From: Meiothermus sp.
Lineage (GTDB): Bacteria > Deinococcota > Deinococci > Deinococcales > Thermaceae
Assembly: GCF_026004075.1 (NCBI RefSeq)
Contig: NZ_BPIK01000002.1
Location: 62,001-126,000 of the forward strand
Direction of reading: 5' to 3'
Length of the DNA: 64,000 nucleotides
In this document: piece by piece, positions 21,450-35,228 of the stretch
Layout: each line of letters starts with the position of its first letter
Numbering within the stretch: the stretch's first letter is position 1
Notes under the pieces: generated by a model
Seen by the model: only the letters and a program-made list of their open reading frames with translations
What the model was told of the DNA's origin: nothing
Databases searched by the model: none
Position numbers and translations under genes: made by a program

Positions 21450-22265
21450 ATGGCCGAGCTTCCCCCCATCCTGGCGGTGTTCGCCCACCCCGACGACGAG
21501 GCCTTTCCCACCGGCGGCACCCTGGCCCACTACGCGCGGCGGGGGCATCCGGTCTACCTGGCCTGTGCCACCCGGGGCGAGGCGGGGCAGCTCAAAGACC
21601 CCACCCTCACCGTGGAGGATATGGGCGCATGGCGCACCCAGGAGCTCGAGGCCTCCTGCCAGGCCCTGGGCCTCCAGCCCCCCATCTTTCTGGGCTACCG
21701 CGACTCCGGGCGCAACGAGCGGCTGCGCCGCGACGACCCCCAGGCCCTCCACAACGCCAACCTGTGGGAGGTGGAGGCCAAAATCCGCGAGCTTATAGCC
21801 GAGCTTCAACCCAGAATCCTGATTACCTTCGACCCCCACGGGGGTTACGGGCACCCCGACCACCTGGTCGTGCACCGTGCCGCCACCGCCGCGTTTTTTT
21901 CCTCGGGCCACCTGCCCAACCCCCCAGCACGCCTTTTCTACAGCGTCTTCACCAGCGAATACGCCGCCGCCATGCAGCAAAGCGGCCAGGCCAACAGCAT
22001 CCTGGGTGGCCTCGACCCCCAGGTCTTCGGCGTAGCCGAAAACACCCTGGCGGTGCGGATGAACGTGCAGGCCTACCTACCCCAAAAGCGAGCGGCCATC
22101 GCCGCCCACCGCTCGCAGTTCGCCGACCGCATCCAGGCCATGAACGCCACCCTCGATCGCCAAGCCCTCATGGAGCAGCTGATCTCGGTGGAAACCTTCG
22201 CTCTGGGTGGAACCCGCGGCCCCATCCCGCGCTGGCCCTTGCAGGACTTGTTCGAAGGCCTGTAA
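21450..22265 (+). CDS. PIG-L/LmbE family deacetylase (possible BshB-type)
   Basis: A 271-residue zinc-dependent N-acetylglucosaminyl deacetylase-family protein. The first metal motif is AVFAHPDDEAFPTGGTLAHY (His, Asp and Asp near residues 12-15) and the second is GGYGHPDHLVVH. Relatives include BshB (bacillithiol precursor), MshB (mycothiol) and chitobiose deacetylases, and the substrate cannot be assigned here. ATG 21450 was chosen over the TTG at 21417, which overlaps galK, because a TATAAT lies 7 nt upstream. The last codon is followed by TAA, the first triplet of repeat copy B. Confidence 0.85.
   Translation: MAELPPILAVFAHPDDEAFPTGGTLAHYARRGHPVYLACATRGEAGQLKDPTLTVEDMGAWRTQELEASCQALGLQPPIFLGYRDSGRNERLRRDDPQALHNANLWEVEAKIRELIAELQPRILITFDPHGGYGHPDHLVVHRAATAAFFSSGHLPNPPARLFYSVFTSEYAAAMQQSGQANSILGGLDPQVFGVAENTLAVRMNVQAYLPQKRAAIAAHRSQFADRIQAMNATLDRQALMEQLISVETFALGGTRGPIPRWPLQDLFEGL

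Positions 22266-26635: not shown

Positions 26636-26639
<4 letters not shown>
25041..26639 (-). CDS. GH43 beta-xylosidase / alpha-arabinofuranosidase
   Basis: A 532-residue two-domain GH43 enzyme without signal peptide. The five-bladed propeller starts NPILRGFHPDPSIL (catalytic base Asp), with GIWAPCLS, the pKa-modulating Asp in SSGFDPSLFHDEDG and the acid Glu in GVTEGPHLYKKDGWYYL. The C-terminal half is a beta-sandwich of the GH43_C2 type, as in subfamily 11 xylosidases. It should release xylose from imported xylo-oligosaccharides. The ATG at 26639 overlaps the GH1 stop by 4 bp (ATGA), so the longer upstream frame was rejected. Confidence 0.93.
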
Positions 26640-27970
<1,331 letters not shown>

Positions 27971-27978
27971 AGGTCTCC

Positions 27979-28974
27979 TTAAGGTTGTTGTAAGGTGCGC
28001 TGGAGGGCAAAGTAGGCCGGCTTGGGTTGGTAATCTACGTCGAAGATGAGGGGCTCGCTGGCCCCCCGCCAGGAGTGGGCATCGGTAAAGCCCCACAGGG
28101 TGAAGACCTTGCAGCGGGGCTGGCGCAGGCAGACTTGCAGCACTTCGCGGTACACCTGGGCCTGTTTCTCGAGCCGTTCGGCTCTGGAGCCGGTACTACC
28201 CAGCCGCACGTCCATCTCGGTGATGTGAATTTCCAGTCCGAGCTGGGCGAAGCGCTCGAGGTTCTCGGCCATCCGCACCTGCCTGGGGGAGAAGCTCGAG
28301 TCCACGTGCACCTGGAAGCCCACCCCATCCACCGGCGCCCCCTTTGCTTTGAGGTCCTTCAGGAGCGCGTAGATGGCGTCCGACTTGGCCCCCAGGCCCT
28401 CGGCCCCGTAGTCGTTGTAGAACAGCTTGGCGCTGGGGTCGGCTGCACGGGCCAGCCGAAAGGCTTTTTCCAGGTAGCCGGGCAGCGCATCGAAGGGCGT
28501 CGAGCGCAGCCGGGCGTCGTCGCCGATCGCCTCGTTTACCACATCCCAGTAGGCGATTTGGCCGCGGTAGCGCCCCACCACGGTGCGGATGTGATCGCTC
28601 AGGATGGCCTCCATCTCGGCCGGGGTAAAACTGCCGTACATCCAGCGGGGCAGTTGCTGGTGCCAGACCAGGGTATGCCCCCGCACCGCCTGCCGGTTCC
28701 TCTGGGCGAAGTTCAGAAGCAGGTCGGCAGCGGCGAAGTTGTACTCACCTCGAGCGGTCTGCAGGGCCCCCCACTTCATCACGTTCTCGGCCACCACCAG
28801 GTTGAACTCTCGAGCCAGCACCTGGGCGTACTGGGGTTCCTGCAGCAACAAACTTGGTTCTACGGCTGCTCCAATCTGAATTTTTCGTGCTTCTGCCAGG
28901 TTACGCAGCGGCGGGCCGGGCTGGGCCAACACCAACAACCCCAGGGAAAACCCAAGAAAAACCCAACTAGACAT
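27979..28974 (-). CDS. Secreted GH10 endo-1,4-beta-xylanase
   Basis: A 331-residue single-domain xylanase. The signal peptide MSSWVFLGFSLGLLVLAQ is followed by the GH10 barrel (IQIGAAVEPSLL, NVMKWGALQ, RGHTLVWHQQLPRWM). The acid/base Glu is in YWDVVNEAIGD and the nucleophile Glu in LEIHITEMDVRLG. WGFTDAHSW is the conserved C-terminal block. No carbohydrate-binding module is attached. Start 28974 has AGGAGG 12 nt upstream near 28986-28991, overlapping the permease stop. The enzyme would act outside the cell and feed xylo-oligosaccharides to the ABC transporter. Confidence 0.96.
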   Translation of the reverse strand: MSSWVFLGFSLGLLVLAQPGPPLRNLAEARKIQIGAAVEPSLLLQEPQYAQVLAREFNLVVAENVMKWGALQTARGEYNFAAADLLLNFAQRNRQAVRGHTLVWHQQLPRWMYGSFTPAEMEAILSDHIRTVVGRYRGQIAYWDVVNEAIGDDARLRSTPFDALPGYLEKAFRLARAADPSAKLFYNDYGAEGLGAKSDAIYALLKDLKAKGAPVDGVGFQVHVDSSFSPRQVRMAENLERFAQLGLEIHITEMDVRLGSTGSRAERLEKQAQVYREVLQVCLRQPRCKVFTLWGFTDAHSWRGASEPLIFDVDYQPKPAYFALQRTLQQP

Positions 28975-28988
28975 AATCTTTGGGCCTC

Positions 28989-29828
28989 CTAGTTTTTGAC
29001 TGCTCCCGAGGTTAGCCCTTCCATAAGCTGCCGAGCCGCCAGGGCAAACACCAGCAGCAGTGGAGCGACCATCAGGGCTGTACCGGCCATAATCGCACCC
29101 CACTCCACATCGGTAGCCCCCTGCAAGGTGCGCAGCACCACCGGTATGGTTTTGGTCTCCTGGGTACGCATTATCACGTTCACATCAGCAAAGCGGTTCC
29201 ACGAGCCGATAAAGGTAATCAGGCCCAGGGTGCCGAGGGCCGGGCGGATCAGGGGCAGAACGACGCGCCAGTAAATCTGGAACTCGCTGCAGCCGTCTAT
29301 CCGCGCTGCATCCACCAGTTCCTTAGGAATGGCCGAGATGATGTACTGCCGCATCATAAAGATGCCCAGTGCGCTGGCCATAGCCGGTACCCAGAGGGCT
29401 TTGGGGGTGTTGATCCATCCGATCTGGTAGATGAGCAAATAGAAGGGAATCAGGTTGAGAATGGCGGGTATCAACAAGGTCGCCATGACCACCGCAAAGA
29501 GCTGTTCGCGCCAGCGGAACTGGTACATGGCAAAGCCAAAACCGGCCAGACTGCAAAAAAACAGGCTGGTGATGGTGGTCATCAGGGCCAGGTAGAAGTT
29601 GTTCCAGTAAGCCCGCCAGAAGGGTATTTTCTCGATCAGAATCTGGTAGTTTGTCAGGAAGTGTTCACCAAACCAGATGGGGGGTGGAAAGCCGAAAATT
29701 TCCGAGCGCTGGTGCGTAGCGAACACGAACATAAAGTAGAACGGCGCGATGGTCAGCACCCCGCCCAGCACCAGGAGGGCGTACCCCCCCAGGCGCAGCA
29801 GCCAACCCCCCAGGGAAACTCGAGCCAT
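28989..29828 (-). CDS. Carbohydrate ABC transporter permease (MalG type)
   Basis: A 279-residue permease with six membrane segments and the EAA loop LVDAARIDGCSEFQIYWRVVLP near residues 190-211. Its length is normal, unlike the galactoside-operon homologue. ATG 29828 is preferred because it lies 2 nt from the stop of the partner permease; the longer frame would overlap it. It works with the next two genes to take up beta-glycan oligosaccharides. Confidence 0.94.
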   Translation of the reverse strand: MARVSLGGWLLRLGGYALLVLGGVLTIAPFYFMFVFATHQRSEIFGFPPPIWFGEHFLTNYQILIEKIPFWRAYWNNFYLALMTTITSLFFCSLAGFGFAMYQFRWREQLFAVVMATLLIPAILNLIPFYLLIYQIGWINTPKALWVPAMASALGIFMMRQYIISAIPKELVDAARIDGCSEFQIYWRVVLPLIRPALGTLGLITFIGSWNRFADVNVIMRTQETKTIPVVLRTLQGATDVEWGAIMAGTALMVAPLLLVFALAARQLMEGLTSGAVKN

Positions 29829-29829
29829 A

Positions 29830-30813
29830 CTAATCGCCTCCCCGGGCCGCACGCCCAAAAATCAGGTTGTTGAGGTAGGTGAGTATGCCGATAAAAACGA
29901 AGAGTAACCAGGCGATGGAGGCCGCCGTGCCCATCTCGAGCCACTCAAAAGCCGTGCGGTACATGTACATGGTGGCGGTCTGTCCCCCCGGTGTGGCCGC
30001 GCTGGCGCCCCCGTTAAGCAGCACAAAGGGCTGCTCAAAAAGCTGCATGTTGCCAATGATGGTGAGGCTAACTGCAAAAAACATCATGGGCCGCAGAAGA
30101 GGCAGGGTGATGTAGCGGAACTGCTGGAGGCGGGTGGCTCCATCCACTGAGGCAGCTTCGTAGAGGTCTTTGGGGATGGCCTGGATGGCGGAGAGGTAGA
30201 GCAAGGTGTTCCAGCCGGTAAACTGCCAGATCACCACCAGGGCAAGGGCGTATTTGATGTTGGCGCTGGTGAACCAGTTGATGTTCTGGTCGGGCAGCAG
30301 CGCACCCAGCAGAGGCCAGGTGTTGAGGTGGGCGATCGCCAGGTTGATAACGCCGTTGTTGGTGGCAAAAAGGGTGTTGAAGATGAGGGCAATGGCCACC
30401 GAAGAGGTGATGTAGGGGAGGAAGTAAACCGCCGTGACAAAGGTCTTGAAACGGCTGAGCACCATGTGAATGACAAAGGCCAGCGGAATGGCGATTAGGT
30501 GTTGTGGAACCCCAGAAAATACCCCCAGCCAGATGGTGTTCCACAGGGAGCGCCAGAACATGGGGTCGGTCAGGGTGAAGGTGTAGTTCTCGAGGCCCAC
30601 GTACTTCCACCGGCCCCACCCGTCGCTGGGCGTCCAGGCCTGAAAAGACATGTACAGAGAAAACAGCGTGGGGTACAGGCCAAAAACCAAGAAAAGGATA
30701 AAAAAGGGGCTAACAAAAATGTAGGGTGCATAGCGGCGCTGGAAGCTGCTCCAGCGCATAGCCAGGGGGGGGCTGCCCTGGCCAGAGGTCGAGGTACCAA
30801 CAGACTTTCGCAC
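29830..30813 (-). CDS. Carbohydrate ABC transporter permease (MalF/UgpA type)
   Basis: A 327-residue permease. The N-terminus is a short polar tail, then RRYAPYIFVSPFFILFLVFGLYP, the first membrane segment. The EAA loop is YEAASVDGATRLQQFRYITLP near residues 220-240. The GTG at 30813 is chosen because GAGGAGC lies just upstream on this strand; the longer frame to 30858 has no such site. A hairpin separates it from the binding-protein gene. Confidence 0.92.
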   Translation of the reverse strand: MRKSVGTSTSGQGSPPLAMRWSSFQRRYAPYIFVSPFFILFLVFGLYPTLFSLYMSFQAWTPSDGWGRWKYVGLENYTFTLTDPMFWRSLWNTIWLGVFSGVPQHLIAIPLAFVIHMVLSRFKTFVTAVYFLPYITSSVAIALIFNTLFATNNGVINLAIAHLNTWPLLGALLPDQNINWFTSANIKYALALVVIWQFTGWNTLLYLSAIQAIPKDLYEAASVDGATRLQQFRYITLPLLRPMMFFAVSLTIIGNMQLFEQPFVLLNGGASAATPGGQTATMYMYRTAFEWLEMGTAASIAWLLFVFIGILTYLNNLIFGRAARGGD

Positions 30814-30870
30814 GGATGCTCCTCTTGGCTGGCCCTGCTTGGGAAAACCTTTTCCCACGGGCCACAGAAG

Positions 30871-30896
30871 GGGGAGAAGGGCGGGCCCTTCTCCCC
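30871..30896 (-). terminator. Attenuating hairpin between binding-protein and permease genes
   Basis: GGGGAGAAGGGC (30871-30882) pairs perfectly with GCCCTTCTCCCC (30885-30896), a 12-bp stem with a 2-nt loop. It lies 9 bp after the binding-protein stop. The U-tract is weak (CTTCTGT), so it may act as a partial terminator or as a 3' stabiliser. Confidence 0.65.
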
Positions 30897-30905
30897 TTCA
30901 TTTGG

Positions 30906-32138
30906 TTAGCGCATACGGCGTTCGATGAGCCGCTTGGCCTCAGCCAGGGCCGTCGGAATGTCCTTGCCCTCGTCCAGCACTTGGGCAAGCGCCTGTGAGA
31001 TAATCTCGTTGGCTACACGGTCGTACTTATTGGCGCGCAGGGGCTTTACCCGGCGGGCTGCGTCGCGCCACAGCAGCCGGGCCTGCTGACCACCCAGGAA
31101 CTCAATGGGCTCGTTAAAGGAGGGGTCTTCCTGGGCTGACAGCAAGGAGGGGAAGGCGCCGATAGCTTTGAAAGCGGCTACCTGCGCTTCTCTGGTAGTA
31201 GTTACAAACTTGATGAACTCCCAGGCCAGGGCCTTATTCTTTGAGGTGCTGGAAATCGCATAGAAACTGCCTCCCCAGGAGGCGTACATACCTTCGGGGA
31301 GTTGCTGCACACGCCACAGCCCTTTGGTCTCGGGAGCCATCCAGTTTTGCAGGTGGCCCTGCAGCCAGGCCCCGGAGAACTGCGTGGCCACGGTACCCTT
31401 CTTAAAGGCGTCGTACCACTCGTTGGACCAGGCTCCAATCCGGGCATCCAGTCCGGCAGCGCGAATGTTTTTGGCCAGCTCAAAGGCCCGCACAAAGCGG
31501 GGGCTATCCACAACCACCTTGCCCTGGGCATCGAAGTAAGGGCTGTTGTTGGCTGGGGTGGTGGCGAAGATGTTGATCCAGGCCACATCGGAAGCGTCGG
31601 CAATGAGGAAAGCGCCGGTGGTGGCCTTGATTTTACGGCCAGCGGCAATATAGCCCGGCCAGGTCATCATGTTTTTGGGATCTACGCCAGCCTTTTGCAG
31701 GATATCCACCCGGTAAAAGAAAGTGCCGGGCCCGATGTCCACCGGCATGGCGATAAACCGCCCATCCGACGCGGTGGCTTGGGCGATCGTATAGGGAGTG
31801 AAGAGCCGCTTATACTGCCCGGCATTGTAGGGGGCCTTGTTCAGGTCTTCAAAACCCTGCCCTTCGGCAAAGCGGCCTACAAACCCAACCTCGATGGCCG
31901 CCACATCGGGCAGACCTTGCCCGGTGGCCAGCGCAGTGGTAAGGGCGTTGTGGTGGTCGGCGTACTGCTGGATTACCAGCTTGACTTCGACATCGGGGTA
32001 TTTCTTGTTGAACAACGGAATTTGTGCCTTGAGGGCGTCGTCGAGGTTGGGAAAGACCCCAACCGTGAGGGTGGTTTTCTGGGCCAGGCCCAGCCCAAAC
32101 AGTACCAACAGTGCCAGCAGCGATGGGATTTGCTTCAT
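30906..32138 (-). CDS. Sugar ABC transporter substrate-binding protein
   Basis: A 410-residue exported solute-binding protein. MKQIPSLLALLVLFGLGLAQ is the signal peptide. The mature part fits the family 1 sugar-binding fold (TTLTVGVFPNLDDALKAQIP, GQGLPDVAAIEVGFVGRF, IDGGP-like PVDIGPGTFFYRVDIL, TQFSGAWLQG). AGGAGG precedes the ATG. It is first in the operon with xylanase, GH1, GH43 and GH16 genes, so xylo- or gluco-oligosaccharides are the likely ligands. As in the galactoside operon there is no ATPase gene. Confidence 0.93.
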   Translation of the reverse strand: MKQIPSLLALLVLFGLGLAQKTTLTVGVFPNLDDALKAQIPLFNKKYPDVEVKLVIQQYADHHNALTTALATGQGLPDVAAIEVGFVGRFAEGQGFEDLNKAPYNAGQYKRLFTPYTIAQATASDGRFIAMPVDIGPGTFFYRVDILQKAGVDPKNMMTWPGYIAAGRKIKATTGAFLIADASDVAWINIFATTPANNSPYFDAQGKVVVDSPRFVRAFELAKNIRAAGLDARIGAWSNEWYDAFKKGTVATQFSGAWLQGHLQNWMAPETKGLWRVQQLPEGMYASWGGSFYAISSTSKNKALAWEFIKFVTTTREAQVAAFKAIGAFPSLLSAQEDPSFNEPIEFLGGQQARLLWRDAARRVKPLRANKYDRVANEIISQALAQVLDEGKDIPTALAEAKRLIERRMR

Positions 32139-32174
32139 GGTTTCCTCCTAAACAAACAGATTGCCTGAACCGGT

Positions 32175-32192
32175 TTTGAAAGCGCTTTCAAA
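32175..32192. promoter_or_regulatory. LacI-type operator, perfect 18-bp palindrome
   Basis: TTTGAAAGCGCTTTCAAA, perfectly symmetric with the central GCGC typical of LacI/CcpA family sites. It lies 36 bp upstream of the binding-protein ATG and just beyond the regulator stop. A near-identical site overlaps the regulator promoter at 33311. Repressor bound here should block the operon. Confidence 0.85.
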
Positions 32193-32232
32193 GTTATTTA
32201 GATTGTTTTCATCACCTCCTTCGCTCCATCCG

Positions 32233-33261
32233 TCAGGTCAACAGGTGCGCAGCCAGAGCACCCGAGGAGCGGATCAAAGACGTGGATTCCCGCACTACCA
32301 GGTTAGTAGAGAGGGGCTTGGGCGTGTAATCGTGACCCTCGAGGAGGGCCAGCATCAGACGCGCGGCCTCCCAGCCCATGGCCGGGCCCGGCTGGCGGAC
32401 GGTAGTGAGGGGTGGGGTGAAGTAGCTCGAGCTGGGCAGGTCGTCGAAACCCACCAGCGAGACATCGTGGGGAACACGAATTCCCCGGCGGTACAGGGCC
32501 ACATTGGCGCCGTAGGCCATCTGGTCGTTGGCAGCGAAAATGGCGGTGAACAGAGCACCTCGAGCCAGCAGTGCCTCGACGGCCAGCACCCCGGACTGCT
32601 CCATATAGTCCCCCACCACCACCAAGGCGGGGTCGAAGGGGATATGGGCCTCCTTGAGGGCCGCCCGGTAGCCCTCGAGGCGCTCGATGGCATCCGGGTG
32701 GGAGGTGGGGCCCGCGATGTGCGCAATCCGGCGGTGGCCCAGCTCAATCAGGTGCTGGACGCCTTCGTAGGCTCCCTGCCGGTTGTTTATGCCCAGGCAT
32801 TTCAGGCCCGGAATTTTGCGACCCACCACCACCACCGGCATGGTGTGGGCCAGTTCCTTCAGGCGCTCCTCCGGCACGCTGCCGTCCATCACGATCAGAC
32901 CATCCACCTGGCGGCCCACCAGCACCTTCAAGGCTGCTTCCTCCTGATCGGCGCGCCAGTGGCCGCTGGCAAAGATGGGGTGGTAGGCCGTGCCCTCGAG
33001 GGCCTGTTCCACCCCCTTGAGCATCTCGCCGTAGTAGGGACTGCTGATCTCCTGGGTAATGACCCCGATGGTAAGCGAACGCCCCTGGGCCAGGCCCTTG
33101 GCCATGATGTTGGGGCGGTAGTGCAGGCGCTCAATGGCCCTAAGAACAGCCTCCCGTTTGCTGGCAGCTACTCGAGCCGTACCGTTGATCACCCGCGAAA
33201 CCGTGCTGGGCGAGACCCCGGCCTCGCGGGCTACATCGCTAAGGGTTACGGCTTCGCGCAA
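32233..33261 (-). CDS. LacI-family transcriptional regulator of the xylan/glucan operon
   Basis: A 342-residue LacI protein. The N-terminal helix-turn-helix and hinge are TLSDVAREAGVSPSTVSRVI (residues about 6-25) and HYRPNIMAKGLAQ. The periplasmic-binding-like sensor has GVITQEISSPYYGEMLKGVE, LIVMDGS, NNRQGAYEGVQHLIELGHRRI and VGFDDLPSSSYF. The start is probably the TTG at 33261 with GGAGG just upstream: the longer frame from 33327 includes the promoter. It is expected to repress the operon and itself through the two GAAAGCGCT palindromes until an oligosaccharide binds. Confidence 0.93.
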   Translation of the reverse strand: MREAVTLSDVAREAGVSPSTVSRVINGTARVAASKREAVLRAIERLHYRPNIMAKGLAQGRSLTIGVITQEISSPYYGEMLKGVEQALEGTAYHPIFASGHWRADQEEAALKVLVGRQVDGLIVMDGSVPEERLKELAHTMPVVVVGRKIPGLKCLGINNRQGAYEGVQHLIELGHRRIAHIAGPTSHPDAIERLEGYRAALKEAHIPFDPALVVVGDYMEQSGVLAVEALLARGALFTAIFAANDQMAYGANVALYRRGIRVPHDVSLVGFDDLPSSSYFTPPLTTVRQPGPAMGWEAARLMLALLEGHDYTPKPLSTNLVVRESTSLIRSSGALAAHLLT

Positions 33262-33298
33262 AAATGCCTCCGGGCTACAGATAGTTTCTTGATATGAA

Positions 33299-33328
33299 AC
33301 TAAATCATATTTTGAAAGCGCTGTCAAG
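33299..33328 (-). promoter_or_regulatory. lacI-type regulator promoter overlapped by operator
   Basis: On the minus strand TTGACA (33327-33322) is followed after 17 bp by TTTAGT (33304-33299). The operator TTTGAAAGCGCTGTCAAG (33311-33328) covers the -35 and most of the spacer, indicating autorepression. The transcript would start near 33292, about 30 nt before the TTG start. Confidence 0.75.
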
Positions 33329-33420: not shown

Positions 33421-34155
33421 ATGATGAGGCCCATGGATTTGCTGGTGGTGGTGCCTCACCCCGACGACGAGGTGTTCGGCGCAGGTGGAACGCTCATTCA
33501 ATATGCCGACCGGGGCCTGGAGACCGGCCTGATCACCCTCACCAAAGGCGAGGCCGGACGAACCCTGGGGCTGTGCAGGCCGGAAGAGCTGGGTGAACTG
33601 CGAGCCCAGGAGCTACAGCGGGCGGCGCAAATTCTCAAACTGGGCCACCTCGAGCTCTACGATTTTCCCAACGGCCTACCCAACAACCCGGTGGACGGCG
33701 AAGCCAGGGGCCACGGTTTTTCCACCCCGCAGGGCGTGGCCGATCACCCCGAAATTGTCGACCTGTTGCTGTGGCGCTTCGAGGTGCTGCGGCCCAGAGC
33801 CATCATTACCTTTGGCCCCAACGGCTCCAACCGCCACCCCGACCACGTCGCCACCCATCGGTTTGTGGTGAAGGCTGTAGAAAAATCCGGGCAGAAGATC
33901 AAGCTATTCTTCTACGCTTCCCCGCGGCCGCTGCCGGAGTACCTGGAGGGCTGGCTGCCCCCCAACCACGTGCGCCACCTGCCCATGGAGGTGCTGCTGC
34001 AAAAGCTGCGGGCCATGGCCCAGCACCGCACCCAGGCCCTCTCGGTGCTCAACTTTATGGATCGCTTTAGCTCCCGGCTAGCCAGCGAGACCTTCCACCT
34101 GGCAGGTTATGAAGGGCCCATACAACACGAGCTGCTCTGGTATGCCCGGCCTTAA
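33421..34155 (+). CDS. PIG-L/LmbE family deacetylase, second copy (BshB candidate)
   Basis: A 244-residue zinc deacetylase-family protein. Metal motif one is VVPHPDDEVFGAGGTLIQYA and motif two is GSNRHPDHVATHRFVV. The TKGEAG stretch is shared with BshB proteins. The next gene is a bacilliredoxin-like YtxJ protein, which strengthens a bacillithiol role (deacetylation of GlcNAc-malate). That remains inference, because bshA and bshC are not in the window. Three in-frame ATGs (33421, 33424, 33433) are possible starts. It differs clearly from the paralogue at 21450. Confidence 0.85.
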   Translation: MMRPMDLLVVVPHPDDEVFGAGGTLIQYADRGLETGLITLTKGEAGRTLGLCRPEELGELRAQELQRAAQILKLGHLELYDFPNGLPNNPVDGEARGHGFSTPQGVADHPEIVDLLLWRFEVLRPRAIITFGPNGSNRHPDHVATHRFVVKAVEKSGQKIKLFFYASPRPLPEYLEGWLPPNHVRHLPMEVLLQKLRAMAQHRTQALSVLNFMDRFSSRLASETFHLAGYEGPIQHELLWYARP

Positions 34156-34219
34156 GCGCGCCCTGGGGAAGTGTTCCGGCTGACGGTTATGGGCAGCCTC
34201 GAGGGTTAGACTAAACCCC

Positions 34220-34867
34220 ATGAGAGAACGCATGTTCCCCATCACCACCCCCGAAGAGGCCGATGCTTTTATCGATAGCAAGCCCATCACGGCCATCTTC
34301 AAAGCCGGCACCTGCCACAAGACCATGCAGGGCTGGGGCAATGTCGAAAAAATGCTGCGCGAGCGGCCCGAAATTCCGGTGGGCATCATCAAGGTGGTGG
34401 AGCACCGCCCAGCCTCGAACCGGGTGGCCGAGCGCACCGGCATTGTGCACCACTCCCCGCAAATTATTCTGTTCCGCAACAGCCAGCCGCTTTTTGAGCT
34501 GAACAACTGGGAGATCACCCTGGAAAACCTCGAGGCCCTCTTCCAGCAACACCTCCCGGAGGTAAAGGTCGAACCCGCGCAAGAGGCGGGCAAAAGCAAC
34601 CTCGAGCCCTACAAGCGGCTTCTGGACGCCTACCTGAGCGGAGCGATCAGCGAGCAGCAGTTCGCCTGGGCCTACCTCAACATGTTCCGCGAAGACGCTT
34701 CACTGCGCTCGCAGGAGGAGTTCGAGCTGCTCAACTCCCTGTTCGGCAACCCCGACGAGCACCACATCCACCCCATGGCCATCCTGCAGTTTGAGCAAGC
34801 CAACCCCCAGTCCACGCCGCTATTTGAGCGCGCCCAACACCTGCGGGCCCGCCTCGACACGCTCTAG
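34220..34867 (+). CDS. YtxJ/BrxC-like bacilliredoxin fused to a second small domain
   Basis: A 215-residue protein. Residues about 1-112 match the YtxJ (DUF2847) thioredoxin-like family, monothiol bacilliredoxins that remove bacillithiol from proteins: AIFKAGTCHKT carries the single active-site Cys, followed by GIIKVVEHRPASNRVAERTG and SPQIILFRN. Residues about 125-215 are an added helical domain (KRLLDAYLSGAISEQQFAWA, SQEEFELLNSLFG) that resembles the colicin-immunity-like fold found next to contact toxins. Such a fusion is unusual for YtxJ, normally about 110 residues. TAGACT lies 7 nt before the ATG, suggesting a leaderless mRNA. Confidence 0.75.
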   Translation: MRERMFPITTPEEADAFIDSKPITAIFKAGTCHKTMQGWGNVEKMLRERPEIPVGIIKVVEHRPASNRVAERTGIVHHSPQIILFRNSQPLFELNNWEITLENLEALFQQHLPEVKVEPAQEAGKSNLEPYKRLLDAYLSGAISEQQFAWAYLNMFREDASLRSQEEFELLNSLFGNPDEHHIHPMAILQFEQANPQSTPLFERAQHLRARLDTL

Positions 34868-35129: not shown

Positions 35130-35152
35130 TTACCTGCTATTGGCGAAGCGTT

Positions 35153-35228
35153 CCGCGATAGCTCAGTTGGTAGAGCGCTCGACTGTTAATCGAGTGGTCG
35201 CAGGTTCGAGCCCTGCTCGCGGAGCCAG
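35153..35228 (+). tRNA. tRNA-Asn (anticodon GTT)
   Basis: The full cloverleaf is visible: acceptor TCCGCGA with TCGCGGA, D-arm GCTC/GAGC, anticodon stem CTCGA/TCGAG with loop CTGTTAA (GTT at 35186-35188), T-arm GCAGG/CCTGC with TTCGAGC. The discriminator is G and CCA is encoded. A strong promoter lies upstream and an intrinsic terminator begins 3 nt after it, so it forms its own unit. Confidence 0.97.

Follow-up and report, generated by a model that had tools for sequence, protein, structure and literature searches.

A gene for a PIG-L family deacetylase and, after a gap of 64 bases on the same strand, a gene for a YtxJ-type bacilliredoxin with an additional C-terminal region resembling colicin immunity proteins lie within the window analysed here, a stretch of 64,000 nucleotides from a Meiothermus genome. 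The locus raises the question of what kind of protein this fusion is and whether its upstream neighbour belongs with it, as the initial annotation had read the pairing as pointing to bacillithiol metabolism and the fusion as a new architecture, maybe a redox-controlled toxin-binding or signalling protein. We consider the best overall explanation, with a probability of roughly 0.9, to be that the protein is a Meiothermus AbxC, a monothiol bacilliredoxin with an ImmD-like helical domain, presumably reduced by bacillithiol that Bdr recycles; less firmly, its second domain would have been co-opted for docking or dimerisation. The host genome comprises 3.25 Mb in two contigs, and its close relatives include Meiothermus sp. 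KatS3mg071 (96%) and M. taiwanensis (95%).

Table 1 Features of the abxC locus, in window positions.
Feature	Position	Strand	Details
PIG-L family deacetylase	33421..34155	+	244 aa; PF02585 98.9 bits
AbxC-type atypical bacilliredoxin	34220..34867	+	215 aa, ATG start, kept in close relatives
BrxC (YtxJ) thioredoxin-fold domain, residues 7-104	34238..34531	+	PF11009 82 bits, cut-off 24.2
TCHKT active-site motif, residues 31-35	34310..34324	+	C32 codon 34313-34315
Colicin-D-immunity-like helical domain, residues 129-212	34604..34855	+	PF09204; AlphaFold helices; Foldseek 1v74_B, 1tfk_B

The PIG-L gene adjoins an apparent xylan or xylo-oligosaccharide use cluster on the opposite strand (window positions 26636-33327), which, from reading the translations, contains GH1 beta-glucosidase-like, GH10 xylanase-like and sugar ABC transporter genes and a LacI-type regulator. 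A tRNA-Asn (GTT) is found at 35152-35227, between abxC and a gene for an amino-acid-type ABC transporter ATPase.

The cysteine of the TCHKT motif, C32, is the only one in the protein and is the counterpart of C36 in the AbxC of Deinococcus radiodurans. When aligned with its orthologues from the phylum, the cysteine was invariant (60/60) and the complete TCHKT motif was present in 58 of the 60. AlphaFold modelled the whole protein (10 sequences, mean pLDDT 81, pTM 0.71) with five helices (residues 129-212) after the thioredoxin fold. Searching with this model, Foldseek returned thioredoxin-fold proteins, of which the best was 3iv4 (E 5.5e-6), with the bacilliredoxins YphP and BrxA among the top matches.

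The C-terminal region matched the Colicin_immun family (PF09204) over residues 131-182 with 28.3 bits, or 30.4 bits when this part was scanned alone, against a cut-off of 22. In the AlphaFold model this region is a separate all-helical domain, so that the alternatives which the initial annotation had named as refuting its reading, a place within the thioredoxin fold or a linker, were rejected; modelled alone, the domain was again all-helical (pLDDT 83.6). Foldseek gave 45 weak matches for this domain, none with a significant E-value, and it is within this limit that the two ImmD chains, 1v74_B (0.69, TM 0.56/0.61) and 1tfk_B (0.57), had by far the highest probabilities; by E-value they ranked second and third (TM 0.52-0.61; E 1.8, non-significant). 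Sequence searches of the PDB with the domain gave nothing credible, the matches being troponin C, nucleoporin and SRP68 at E 0.17 or worse. The Pfam profile and the structure comparison both point to a predicted ImmD-like bundle for residues 129-212, so that the initial description as a bacilliredoxin with a colicin-immunity-like C-terminal domain was upheld. The two-domain fusion is not due to chance, because throughout the phylum the Colicin_immun matches lie in the same reading frame as BrxC.

By far the best NCBIfam match of the protein was NF053651, "monothiol bacilliredoxin AbxC" (244.5 bits, E 7.6e-73). This score, over model positions 2-177 of 202, does not make the protein a member by this narrow equivalog model, whose curated cut-off of 340 bits seems to be tuned to closer Deinococcus relatives. 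The name AbxC ("atypical BrxC") was given to D. radiodurans DR_1832 for its TCHKT motif and PF09204 C-terminal region (Jeong et al. 2021, PMC8301015), and the Meiothermus protein has all of the features by which AbxC was defined there: an N-terminal BrxC/DUF2847 domain, TCHKT containing the only cysteine and a PF09204-like C-terminal extension. The same paper names AbxC homologues in Meiothermus and Calidithermus, and de Groot et al. 2022 repeat the architecture, stating the function of the C-terminal domain to be unknown (PMC8945050). With these two papers and an NCBIfam model in existence, the architecture cannot be called new: the fusion is the published AbxC and is not restricted to the host genome. 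The question as originally posed is closed, since this is a phylum-wide, already published type of bacilliredoxin.

Among the 111 Deinococcota genomes searched, PF11009 was found in 62 and PF09204 in 58, nearly always in the same frames, and AbxC with its invariant cysteine is present in about 60. The AbxC tree broadly follows the lineages, indicating vertical inheritance, and the median dN/dS within the genus was about 0.08 and 0.10 for the two domains, indicating purifying selection on both. BshC was found in 102 of the 111 genomes. The listed genomes of one genus, probably Thermus by kinship and gene content, lack a BrxC match; this genus has bshC without a BrxC-type protein, so bacillithiol genes do not always call for an AbxC. 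Clustering of the genes around abxC in relatives showed no bacillithiol gene common to them; what it grouped were frame-shadow ORFs and neighbours without a name. In a few genomes a short stand-alone BrxC with the classical CPIS/CPVS motifs occurs beside AbxC (genome G072, locus L027; genome G096, locus L080).

What the second domain does is where the explanations differ. Its similarity to PF09204, with ImmD as the most probable structural match, could be taken to mean that AbxC is a redox-controlled immunity protein, one whose C-terminal domain would inactivate a tRNA-cleaving toxin of the colicin D type, this binding being turned on or off by the thioredoxin domain according to redox state. 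We regard this as very improbable: a search for the Colicin_D nuclease domain (PF11429) came up empty in all 111 genomes of the phylum, the host and 110 others, PADLOC gave no match, and no toxin gene is apparent among the immediate neighbours of abxC. Immunity genes usually turn over rapidly, whereas AbxC is vertically inherited and evolves slowly under strong purifying selection. The toxin-binding role suggested at the outset was therefore abandoned, and a toxin-antitoxin or defence reading was rejected, as the Colicin_D domain is absent from these 111 genomes and PADLOC gave no match. With no toxin domain, slow evolution and a tree which follows the lineages, the immunity-like fold appears to have been co-opted.

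The biochemistry of the D. radiodurans protein indicates what it may have been co-opted for. There, the sole Cys36 is needed for resistance to H2O2, and the C36S variant fails to provide it; H2O2 oxidises the cysteine, giving intermolecular disulfides in the form of homodimers or, as proposed, with clients such as the one-cysteine OxyR; bacillithiol, together with DrBdr and NADPH, reduces the disulfide dimers; and AbxC binds DrOxyR (PMC8301015). By analogy, C32 of the Meiothermus AbxC would undergo the same oxidation, disulfide formation and reduction by bacillithiol, which would in turn be recycled by Bdr with NADPH and supplied by the host's own bshA, bshC and a PIG-L deacetylase. More tentatively, the C-terminal domain would serve to dock other proteins or to dimerise rather than in toxin immunity, and docking of client proteins is the role which we infer and prefer. 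That the domain does no more than dimerise or stabilise the protein, without docking clients, we think unlikely, though it would suit both an all-helical domain and the H2O2-linked dimers reported for D. radiodurans AbxC; the motifs FR.D, LR and FG..D are kept across the phylum, which speaks for more than an appendage, although structural constraint alone could explain their conservation.

The bacillithiol context suggested by the initial annotation was borne out by the genome itself, in which bshA (two genes), bshC and a bdr/YpdA reductase all score over their family cut-offs. The two BshA-type glycosyltransferases which pass are at G000:C2:525819-527060 (L015) and G000:C1:911129-912205 (L016). 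The PIG-L gene is a different matter. Its adjacency to abxC is real, and the 64-base gap on a common strand, its best NCBIfam match to BshB2 and the wide occurrence of its orthologues in a phylum with nearly universal BshC would all suit a dedicated two-gene bacillithiol module, in which AbxC would be served by the PIG-L protein encoded next to it, acting as the bacillithiol deacetylase (BshB or a conjugate amidase). However, the BshB2 match is below its cut-off (TIGR04000, 81 vs 195.25 bits), as is that to TIGR04001 (50.3 vs 182.5 bits), and the protein is under all of the BshB, MshB and Mca cut-offs. The host genome contains five PIG-L matches in all, and two of the other four outscore the abxC-adjacent one on PF02585. 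Of 22 genomes checked, from the genus and the two genera closest to it, only 5 have PIG-L beside abxC and 2 more have it 6-8 kb away, in a count where "other contig" in a fragmented assembly does not exclude closeness; at loci L005-L012 no PIG-L gene is near abxC (up to 4 kb flank). Relatives of this PIG-L occur across the phylum, including in the probable Thermus genus without AbxC, and many genomes with BshC have no close orthologue of it at E 1e-20. We therefore find the two-gene module doubtful. Since the two genes adjoin only in some lineages and the PIG-L protein passes neither BshB nor MshB cut-offs, the gene pair on its own is weak evidence for bacillithiol metabolism, and it gives no evidence of a shared function; the two genes are probably co-transcribed in the species group of the host, yet this does not require a functional link between them. 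The scores under the cut-offs and the non-conserved adjacency also ruled out the PIG-L protein as a proven BshB. Because none of the four full PIG-L proteins tested from the host genome passed a BshB cut-off, the bacillithiol deacetylase is not assignable among them. A second PIG-L in the window (21471-21893; G000:C2:83471-83893) has a higher PIG-L score than the one beside abxC and a best NCBIfam match which is MshB-like and under the cut-off.

We also found a second AbxC-type gene in the host genome (BrxC match at G000:C1:1747860-1748150; L068:3635-4432, minus strand), with 47% identity to the AbxC of the window. It has the same two-domain layout, TSDKT replaces TCHKT and there is no cysteine; for PF09204 it scores close to the cut-off of 22 (20.3 bits as scanned, 22.6 in the genome search). 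The paralogue is present in 12 of the 18 genomes of the genus (orthologues L057-L067, 42-47% identity to the AbxC of the window) with the motif T[ST]D[KR]T, the catalytic position being Ser in 8 and Thr in 4; the aligned region is entirely free of cysteine in 9 of the 12, and the remaining 3 have one elsewhere. The 12 sequences group together with full support (100/100) at the end of a long stem (length 1.56), the attachment point of which is not secure. Gene order around the paralogue is kept, with a class II aldolase-like gene close to it in 12/12 and a VTT-domain membrane protein in most, along with genes named, from reading their translations, as Sir2-type, NnrD/E-type and nucleotidyltransferase. 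As its median dN/dS is about 0.13 at a median dS of 0.94, the paralogue is not a decaying pseudogene.

Given that C36S inactivates the D. radiodurans AbxC, the paralogue very probably lacks bacilliredoxin chemistry, and it is probably best described as a cysteine-free pseudo-bacilliredoxin. A binding or regulatory role would be the obvious guess; we would give even odds to its binding AbxC or the clients of AbxC without thiol chemistry, for example through its ImmD-like domain, as a scaffold or competitor. In the open-licence PMC literature there was no paper on a cysteine-free paralogue, and only PMC8301015 mentions bacilliredoxin or AbxC together with Meiothermus. The paralogue is thus a new-looking by-product of this analysis and a modest lead. 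It constitutes a natural experiment in which both domains are kept and the thiol is removed, so that whatever the second domain does can be addressed separately from the thiol reactions.

Compared with known systems, the C-terminal domain resembles the colicin D immunity protein ImmD (PF09204; 1v74_B), a small helical bundle, in scoring above the Pfam cut-off; however, ImmD is the stand-alone partner of a tRNA-cleaving colicin, whereas the domain described here is fused to a bacilliredoxin, and no such toxin was found in the 111 genomes of the phylum. With the BrxC/YtxJ proteins of Bacillus and Staphylococcus (PF11009, TIGR04019) the protein shares the monothiol thioredoxin-fold domain, and the BrxC/YtxJ structure 3iv4 is its top PDB match both by structure and by sequence. 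Those proteins have about 105-108 aa, the motif TCPIS and no C-terminal domain, in contrast to the 215 aa and TCHKT found here, and the protein falls under the cut-off of the canonical model TIGR04019 (55.5 vs 77.25 bits). D. radiodurans AbxC DR_1832 has the same BrxC domain, one-cysteine TCHKT motif, C-terminal PF09204 region, bacillithiol genes and Bdr as here, the differences being that the Meiothermus protein scores under the NF053651 cut-off and that a PIG-L gene is linked to it in a few species. The AbxC of Meiothermus hypogaeus, which has 51% identity to the D. radiodurans protein (PMC8301015), is 86% identical to the one described here.
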